A model generated the notes under the pieces. That model ran no database searches. It saw nothing but the letters and a program-made list of their open reading frames with translations, and was not told the DNA's origin. A stretch of DNA of 62,858 nucleotides, taken from positions 1 through 62,858 of the forward strand of contig PEAB01000012.1 of NCBI GenBank assembly GCA_002753395.1. The letters are read 5' to 3'. Made by a program: the position numbers and the translations under genes. Shown piece after piece: positions 12,167-14,496 of this stretch (positions are counted from its first letter, which is position 1; each line of letters begins with the position of its first letter). Origin of the DNA: Nitrospirae bacterium MYbinv3 (lineage in GTDB: Bacteria; Nitrospirota; Thermodesulfovibrionia; Thermodesulfovibrionales; Magnetobacteriaceae).

Positions 12167-12220
12167 CCATGCTAAAACTTTCTTCTGGTGTATTAAATAT
12201 GCTAAGCTACACTAAAGGCA

Positions 12221-13120
12221 ATGATGATTGAACAACCCCAAATCAAGGTATTGGTTATAGAAGAATCTGAGGGCAATAGTAAGATAGTTGAGGCTATTTT
12301 AGCAGAAAAAGATTCTGGCGGTTTAGAGTTAAATCAGGTAAGTTCTCTGGAGGATGCTTTGTGGCATCTTAAGCACAAAGTTTTTGATGTGATCATGATA
12401 GATCTATCTGTGCCGGATGCTCATGGTTTTGATGCTTTAATAAAGCTCAACAGGCAAGCCCCAAACATTGCCACTATTGTCATAACCGCGTCGGATTATG
12501 AAACACACATCTTAAAGGTAATCAAGACAGGCGTTGAGGATGTGGTCACTAAAGGAGACTTAGGCCAACATGCTGTCACACAGGCTATCTATCATGCTAT
12601 TGAAAGGTACAGGGCTACAGCAGAACTCAAGGATATGGTTGAGGGGTTAAGCGATAAGCAAGAGACAAGACCGTATGATCGTTTTTCTTTTTTCCCAATG
12701 ACCGACATAACGCCGCAACTGTTTGGATTGGCGCCACTGAGTCAGAGTTTACCGGAGACGTTTGCTGAGATAGTCAACTGTTACGGGGAGCTTTTGGGTG
12801 AGTTGACGAAGCGCAGGGATAATCATGTAGAGCGTTATATGACAGAGACACTTCGTGTAATAAGTCAGCAGTTGGGTCTTCTGAAGGCTGGCCCCAAAGA
12901 CGTGGTCGAAATCCACGTTACAGCTTTGAAACACAAGCTGCATGAAATAAAGCAGGATAAGATGCACCTGTATATTGAGAGGAGCCGGTTGTTGGCGCTT
13001 GATTTTATGGGCTATCTGGTGTCATATTATCGCAGCTACGCCTACCTTTCAGAAAAATACAAGCAAAACAGCCTAGATATCTCAGCCATGATTGCTGATA
13101 AGAGCGACAGGAATTATTAA
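12221..13120 (+). CDS. receiver protein with a KaiA-C/RsbU-N-like helical domain
   Basis: Residues 8-130 are a receiver with E14-E15, phosphoacceptor D61 (IDLSVPDAHGFD), T89 and K111, though the usual K-P is K-G. A linker (about 140-175) leads to a helical domain (about 177-285). There Y-G-E-L-L, P-K-D-V-V-E-I-H (225-232) and R-L-L-A-L-D-F resemble both the KaiA C-terminal domain, which has V-V-E-I-H at the same place, and the N-terminal domain of RsbU-type phosphatases. Length (299 aa) and layout equal KaiA. No kaiB or kaiC is present. A switch protein that docks on a partner kinase or phosphatase is inferred. Confidence 0.7.
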   Translation: MMIEQPQIKVLVIEESEGNSKIVEAILAEKDSGGLELNQVSSLEDALWHLKHKVFDVIMIDLSVPDAHGFDALIKLNRQAPNIATIVITASDYETHILKVIKTGVEDVVTKGDLGQHAVTQAIYHAIERYRATAELKDMVEGLSDKQETRPYDRFSFFPMTDITPQLFGLAPLSQSLPETFAEIVNCYGELLGELTKRRDNHVERYMTETLRVISQQLGLLKAGPKDVVEIHVTALKHKLHEIKQDKMHLYIERSRLLALDFMGYLVSYYRSYAYLSEKYKQNSLDISAMIADKSDRNY

Positions 13121-13164: not shown

Positions 13165-14496
13165 ATGTTTAATCCACAGACACACGACATCATAAAAGAG
13201 CTGGCCTTGGGTCTAGCAAACAAGGAGTTCGATGCTGGGTTGAGGAGCTCAGAACGTTTGCTTAATATCTTAAAAGAATCATGGTCTCCCAACTGTGTGG
13301 GCATCCTCAACAGCAGCGATCTAGCCCAGTTGTTTAGGCAATCAAGCCCTATTAGGTACAAGCAGGATGACATCATAGTCAACGAGGGACAGCCAACTGA
13401 TGGGCTTTACGTCATTGTAAGCGGTAGTGCTGCCCTGTCTTTTGAAAAGCAAAACGAGTTAGGATTTCCAATGAGTCTTATGTCACGCTTTATAGAGGCA
13501 CACATGGCTAACAATAAGGCGTCGGTCGATCTGTTGACTGAAGGTGATGTCTTTGGTGAATCATCACTCTTTGGTGCCCCCGTAATCCCTTACACAGCTA
13601 AGGCACTGACCGACCTGTTGCTTATTAAGATCGAAAAGACCTCAGTAGAGCTCCTGTACAGTCAAAAACCACTGCTTAGGCAGTGTCTCCTGGATCTATA
13701 TACATCCATACTTAACCGTATGACAGAGGAGGTAAGGGTGGCATCAGCTAAACGAGTAGGGCGCCTTTCAGATATCTTGGCCGGTATCACACAGCAGCCA
13801 GAAGATGCTGAGCTTGCCAAGATGGACTCACTAGTTAGCAGTGAGCCGGCAAACCCGTTTAGTCACATTAATAAGGCCAGGATGCTTCTTAAGAGAGGGG
13901 GCAAGGCGGAGGCAGTAGCAGGGTTTTTAAAGGGCGCCTCGATACTTAAGGGACTTAATGCCATGAGCAAGGCACTTGCTTTTTATAAGGTTGTTGCCCG
14001 GATAGAGCCTGATAACGTTGCTGTACAGGAGTCTATCGAAGAGCTTATGGCCATGCATCCAAGGCATCGCGGCCTGGTCAATAAGGCACGGGATTTAGAC
14101 AACAGTCTGTTTCTCTCCCTCTTAGACCCATCAGGGATTCAGTCGCTCTTTGAGAAGGCAGGGCAGCGGCAGCTTCAGGCTGGTGAGGTCGTCATTGAGG
14201 AGGGGCGGCAGGCAGATGCGACCTATATCGTCAAAAAGGGTGCGGCGTTGGTCGACATTGCGGGATTGGGCAGCATCCCGCTTACAACAGGGGACATGTT
14301 TGGCGAGCTTTCGATCTTTACCGGTGAGCCGATAACGGCCTCCGTCAGGGCCGATGGTGCCCTTGAAGTCTACGTAATAAGCAAGCCTATGATTACTGAC
14401 CTCTTAAACACCATCCCTGAGATAATATTCACCCTTGACAACGTATACCAGACAAGGACAAAGCAGATATTACAGGCACTAAAAAGGGATTACTAG
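13165..14496 (+). CDS. protein with two cyclic-nucleotide-binding domains
   Basis: The 443-residue protein has an N-terminal CNB/cupin-roll domain (about 65-190, with D-G-L-Y-V-I-V-S-G and L-L-T-E-G-D-V-F-G-E-S-S-L-F-G). A helical, TPR-like middle (about 225-300) follows, then a second CNB domain (about 325-435, with L-T-T-G-D-M-F-G-E-L-S-I-F-T-G-E-P). The canonical R in the phosphate-binding cassette is not evident in either copy. There is no DNA-binding domain, so it is not a CRP-type regulator. A class III cyclase lies 11 kb downstream. Its start looks leaderless. Confidence 0.8.
   Translation: MFNPQTHDIIKELALGLANKEFDAGLRSSERLLNILKESWSPNCVGILNSSDLAQLFRQSSPIRYKQDDIIVNEGQPTDGLYVIVSGSAALSFEKQNELGFPMSLMSRFIEAHMANNKASVDLLTEGDVFGESSLFGAPVIPYTAKALTDLLLIKIEKTSVELLYSQKPLLRQCLLDLYTSILNRMTEEVRVASAKRVGRLSDILAGITQQPEDAELAKMDSLVSSEPANPFSHINKARMLLKRGGKAEAVAGFLKGASILKGLNAMSKALAFYKVVARIEPDNVAVQESIEELMAMHPRHRGLVNKARDLDNSLFLSLLDPSGIQSLFEKAGQRQLQAGEVVIEEGRQADATYIVKKGAALVDIAGLGSIPLTTGDMFGELSIFTGEPITASVRADGALEVYVISKPMITDLLNTIPEIIFTLDNVYQTRTKQILQALKRDY

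Follow-up and report, generated by a model that had tools for sequence, protein, structure and literature searches.

What does a KaiA-like protein do in a genome in which neither KaiB nor KaiC can be detected? The question is raised by a gene of Nitrospirae bacterium MYbinv3 encoding a 299-residue protein in which a receiver, a linker and a C-terminal helical domain follow one another as in KaiA. To our knowledge, no role has been described for KaiA beyond the regulation of KaiC. The gene was analysed within a window, by which we mean the whole stretch of 62,858 nucleotides, and its features are collected in Table 1 with those of a second copy from the same genome. Its reading frame opens with ATGATG, which leaves the start codon uncertain by one residue.

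Table 1. Features of the MYbinv3 locus and of its paralogue (positions in the window unless preceded by a locus handle)
Feature	Position	Strand	Remarks
AAAGG, likely Shine-Dalgarno sequence	12214..12218	+	From sequence; spacing would fit the second ATG (12224) better
KaiA3-family gene, probable orphan, 299 aa	12221..13120	+	Receiver, linker and KaiA-like C-domain
Receiver domain, residues 10-111	12248..12553	+	Active site E14/E15-D61-T89-K111
D61 codon	12401..12403	+	Presumed phospho-acceptor
Long helix 116-148 and low-confidence linker 151-166	12566..12718	+	AlphaFold2
KaiA-like helical C-domain, about residues 173-280	12737..13060	+	
VVEIH, residues 228-232	12902..12916	+	Aligns with VLEIH/VVEIH of cyanobacterial KaiA
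R254-S255-R256 in place of E-G-R	12980..12988	+	E254 invariant in 41/41 kaiBC-linked relatives
Downstream gene, two cyclic-nucleotide-binding (CNB) domains	13165..14496	+	44 bp from the KaiA3 gene; possible functional link
Paralogue of KaiA3, degenerate receiver	L029:2384-3169		Own genome
Receiver-GGDEF diguanylate cyclase	L029:3175-4089		Five bases after the paralogue

Domain architecture and likeness to KaiA

The N-terminal part of the protein is matched by Response_reg (PF00072) over residues 10-111 (E 1.8e-15, 57.5 bits), and all of its NCBIfam matches are driven by this receiver. D61 aligns with the phospho-acceptor kept in 35 of the 41 kaiBC-linked relatives, and the active site is completed by the acidic pair E14/E15, T89 and K111. 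The original prediction of a functional-looking D61 is borne out by the retention of all these residues and sets the protein apart from canonical KaiA, in which a pseudo-receiver lacks the Asp.

The full-length AlphaFold2 model, computed from an alignment of 46 sequences (mean pLDDT about 86; 85.9), shows the receiver followed by a long helix (116-148), then a segment of low confidence (151-166) and the helical C-domain, which when predicted alone forms a four-helix domain (pLDDT 84). Against re-aligned PDB chains the first seven rows for the C-domain model were all KaiA (4g86, 1r8j, 1v2z, 5n8y, 1q6a, 5jwr and 1r5q; Z 9.7-10.8 over 89-104 residues), a Z of about 10 not being decisive alone for a helical bundle, followed by RsbR-N (Z 9.1) and RsbU-N (1w53, Z 5.5 over 69 residues). 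The full-length model matches KaiA 1r8j across 293 columns covering both domains. Foldseek with the C-domain placed KaiA in the top ranks at E values above 0.2, and the claim of a KaiA fold is therefore based on this second-look alignment together with profile comparison and synteny. In hhalign the C-domain profile scored 34.1 against cyanobacterial KaiA, with column-shuffled controls (n=20) reaching at most 18.1, and the alignment placed VVEIH on the VLEIH of KaiA; KaiA chains were also the first matches of the profile in the PDB (E 0.14). The resemblance to KaiA at the sequence level is thus weak but consistent. Neither Pfam KaiA (PF07688) nor RsbU_N (PF08673) matches the protein on its own, and PF07688 finds no match across the MYbinv3 genome; among the 46 family members PF07688 is detected in 10, of which one or more exceed the curated cut-off, and PF08673 weakly in nine.

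The KaiA-like length and domain order that had been read from the bare sequence have accordingly stood up to modelling, to PDB comparison and to the kaiBC context of the relatives, as has the V-V-E-I-H at residues 228-232, which aligns with V-L/V-E-I-H of true cyanobacterial KaiA. The profile check proposed for the C-domain gave a more divided answer, a match to KaiA being obtained at the level of the family or the structure and no Pfam match for the protein alone. Canonical KaiA (PF07688; 1r8j, 4g86, 1v2z) shares domain order, length, C-domain fold and the VxEIH motif with the MYbinv3 protein, which differs in falling below the Pfam KaiA model and in residing in a genome without detectable kaiBC. 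The likeness to the RsbU N-terminus was also correctly perceived, although it is weaker than that to KaiA: the RsbU N-terminal domain (PF08673; 1w53) has the general fold in common with the C-domain, but RsbU carries a PP2C phosphatase domain and no PP2C/SpoIIE domain is present in the 299 residues.

Membership of the KaiA3 family

Full-length homologues in the same bacterial family are 30-36% identical to the protein. Public genome contigs searched with the single protein gave no match; the alignment as query gave 99 matches in many phyla, among them Synechocystis salina, Microcystis, Crocosphaera, Roseiflexus and Magnetobacterium casense. Cyanobacterial KaiA3 homologues (L062, L075, L094 and others) are matched over their length, the Synechocystis salina orthologue L094 being about 28% identical to the MYbinv3 protein. 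With KaiB and KaiC profiles built from Nitrospirota neighbours, kaiB was found directly downstream on the same strand in 81 of the 88 placed family genes, 72 of which are accompanied by kaiC as well. These kaiB-adjoining genes come from Cyanobacteria, Chloroflexota, Pseudomonadota, Nitrospirota and other groups, and the genus of MYbinv3 is represented among them. One further gene has no room on its contig for a downstream kaiB, and six are without kaiB despite such room: the MYbinv3 gene, its paralogue, the copy L021 of a second Nitrospirota genome (G006), L103, L117 and L125. Synteny and homologues together identify the family as KaiA3, to which the protein almost certainly belongs. An unrelated response regulator whose helical output domain resembles KaiA by chance might be suspected from the lack of a direct Pfam KaiA match and from a profile-to-PDB E value of only 0.14; it is extremely improbable given that homology to kaiBC-linked KaiA3 proteins is certain (E down to 1e-60) and that KaiA is the best fold match, and it is refuted by the synteny of the homologues with kaiBC.

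The combination of a receiver with a KaiA-like domain is therefore already known and is not new. KaiA3 was defined in 2024 for Sll0485 of Synechocystis sp. PCC 6803, a protein with a receiver and a KaiA-like C-domain which binds KaiC3 and promotes its autophosphorylation (Koebler et al., PMC11372060); five genera outside Cyanobacteria are named there, Nitrospirota not being among them (PMC11372060). The phosphorylatable-Asp receiver, the linker, the KaiA-like C-domain and the length of 299 residues are all common to Sll0485 and the MYbinv3 protein. However, Sll0485 is encoded beside kaiB3 and works with KaiC3, whereas in MYbinv3 KaiB and KaiC are not detectable and residues E254 and L262 are replaced.

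In magnetotactic Nitrospirota, clusters based on kaiBC have been described as being without KaiA (PMC10278575). These belong to the same bacterial family as MYbinv3, and M. casense, of the same genus, is among those that have the cluster. Despite the description as KaiA-less, a KaiA3-type gene immediately precedes the main kaiBC clusters that we examined in the family (L022-L028); MYbinv3 presents the reverse, with KaiA3 present and KaiBC not found. One divergent receiver-KaiA gene (L024:14525-15358, Ca. Magnetocorallium paracelense XS-1, G009) exceeds the Pfam KaiA cut-off (24.7 against 22.2 bits); kaiB and kaiC come after it, with two further kaiA3-kaiB-kaiC sets on the same contig. Elsewhere the KaiA C-domain is fused to sensors rather than to a lone receiver (L030:8522-9394, L145:1495-3435, L120:476-3325, L104:3087-4937 and L114:4438-6405), the partners being PAS, MASE3-PAS, solute-binding (SBP_bac_3)-PAS, PAS arrays and receiver-PAS; where the contig leaves room downstream of such a gene, kaiB follows it directly. 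Many non-cyanobacterial kaiBC systems, including the supposedly KaiA-less ones of magnetotactic Nitrospirota, thus appear to have an upstream KaiA3-type or sensor-fused KaiA gene, so that true KaiABC oscillators, or timers driven directly by signals, may be far commoner than has been thought. While the KaiA3 family itself is known, its clock-less orphan and the fusion of KaiA domains to sensors upstream of kaiBC appear to be new.

Apparent absence of KaiB and KaiC, and conservation of the two copies

The MYbinv3 genome is a draft of 3.7 Mb in 175 contigs, 96.6% complete. The gene downstream of its KaiA3 gene encodes a CNB-domain protein, not KaiB, and the genome search for kaiB and kaiC that had been suggested detects neither. 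KaiB has no match there, with 10 relatives matched over the cut-off; the best match for KaiC, at 21.7 bits, is an open reading frame with a RadA zinc motif, to be compared with 1129 bits in M. casense. The genome holds two KaiA3-family copies, neither adjoining kaiB. Neither KaiB nor KaiC was found in G006, which represents another genus of the same family and is only 79% complete. In a third Nitrospirota genome (G072, family gene L167:874-1794), where the Kai search was for KaiB, no match was obtained; the family gene there adjoins a PAS-histidine kinase-receiver hybrid. The MYbinv3 KaiA3 is very probably an orphan, although kaiBC could still have been lost in assembly or binning. The corresponding alternative is that the KaiA3-KaiB3-KaiC3 system is complete and its KaiA3 an ordinary one, with kaiB and kaiC present elsewhere in the genome but missed; it draws on the unlinked members L103, L117, L125 and L114, which have KaiB on other contigs of their genomes, and on Synechocystis, where kaiA3B3 stand together and kaiC3 apart (PMC11372060). 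We consider it unlikely, given the completeness of the assembly, the presence of two copies of which neither is beside kaiB, and the repeated absence of KaiB and KaiC in G006.

The MYbinv3 protein, its paralogue and the G006 copy form a clade (support 97/86 and 97/93; 86/94, not starred support, in a smaller 32-row tree). The kaiBC-linked Nitrospirota form a clade of their own (100/99) with the orphans outside, and a sister relationship between the two clades is not rejected (p-AU 0.489). A scenario in which the orphans left the linked Nitrospirota lineage through a recent kaiBC loss was set aside, the linked clade excluding them at 100/99.

Comparison of the two MYbinv3 copies reveals an uneven conservation. 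In the paralogue the receiver site is destroyed (G14, G15, E61 and one deletion), and identity to the MYbinv3 KaiA3 is 61% in the C-domain and only 30% in the receiver. Codon changes between the copies of the C-domain affect 15% of second positions and 52% of third positions, dS being saturated, and both reading frames are open despite this saturated synonymous divergence. The codon-position bias and the dS saturation indicate that selection maintains the C-domain with KaiB and KaiC absent from the assembly. A functionless relict of a lost Kai system would account for two of the three proteins of the clade coming from one KaiBC-less genome, and would explain why residues invariant elsewhere, and the paralogue receiver, have been lost, but is very unlikely in view of the open frames, the strong codon-position bias of the C-domain and the intact receiver active site of the MYbinv3 protein.

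The residue changes concern positions that are otherwise strictly conserved. Both MYbinv3 copies carry R254 where E254 is invariant in all 41 kaiBC-linked members, and F262 in place of the otherwise invariant L262, while the invariant R256 is changed to P in the paralogue; in the hhalign alignment the residue of KaiA opposite E254 is likewise acidic, being the D of L-D-Y-R. These changes are suggestive only, because the G006 copy retains E254 and R256, so that they mark only the MYbinv3 pair, and because one kaiBC-linked protein, L023, also reaches seven changes at 27 conserved sites.

A candidate function outside the clock

The reading that we favour, with a probability of roughly two in three, is that of an orphan KaiA3 whose C-domain has a binding partner other than KaiC. 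The protein would be a response regulator with a KaiA-type C-terminal domain, putatively dimeric, as its output and binding module. A histidine kinase would phosphorylate D61; phospho-D61 may then reposition the C-domain by way of the linker and the long helix, and so uncover or mask a binding face. Since KaiB and KaiC are undetectable in the genome, the C-domain would most likely bind a different protein, and of the partners originally envisaged, an RsbU-type phosphatase or a KaiC-like ATPase, the latter becomes unlikely. That the function is truly a non-KaiC one we propose tentatively. Somewhat short of an even chance is the wider proposal that this KaiA3 lineage left the Kai clock to become the output of an ordinary phospho-relay with a target other than KaiC, perhaps in cyclic-nucleotide signalling or partner switching, and that the KaiA C-domain, as a mobile module carried on receivers, PAS, MASE3 and solute-binding sensors, feeds signals to KaiBC across many phyla.

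A different possibility is that the C-domain has returned to the mode of RsbU-N, binding an RsbT/RsbW-type kinase (HATPase_c_2) in partner switching under the control of the receiver. The fold shared with 1w53, the weak PF08673 matches in the family and the occurrence of HATPase_c_2 proteins in the MYbinv3 genome are consistent with it, as is the position of the CNB relative in G006, between a HATPase_c_2 protein and a PAS-adenylate/guanylate cyclase. Yet HATPase_c_2 proteins are equally common in kaiBC-bearing relatives, no gene of this kind adjoins the MYbinv3 KaiA3 and RsbU_N has no match in the protein, and we regard this possibility as improbable.

For the favoured non-KaiC partner, the neighbouring CNB protein provides a lead, because among 20 relatives its closest is that of the other orphan genome, G006 (2.2e-69, 34%; others 1e-20 to 1e-31); it is only a lead, because in G006 the KaiA3 gene and the CNB relative are on different contigs. 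The CNB neighbour and the GGDEF protein beside the paralogue would loosely link the orphans to nucleotide second messengers, again as a lead only. If the orphan reading is true, a KaiA domain under selection without KaiB and KaiC may be the first known natural case of another role for KaiA, and an orphan KaiA3 would allow one to ask what the KaiA domain was doing before the clock or after it.

The window also contains eight copies of a 22-base element, AGGGGAYCAGTCCCCTTGACCC, on both strands (at 1251, 12120, 20369, 26628, 34875, 46753, 54931 and 57864), where none is expected by chance. It resembles a dispersed palindromic repeat, and one copy lies just 5' of the KaiA3 gene.
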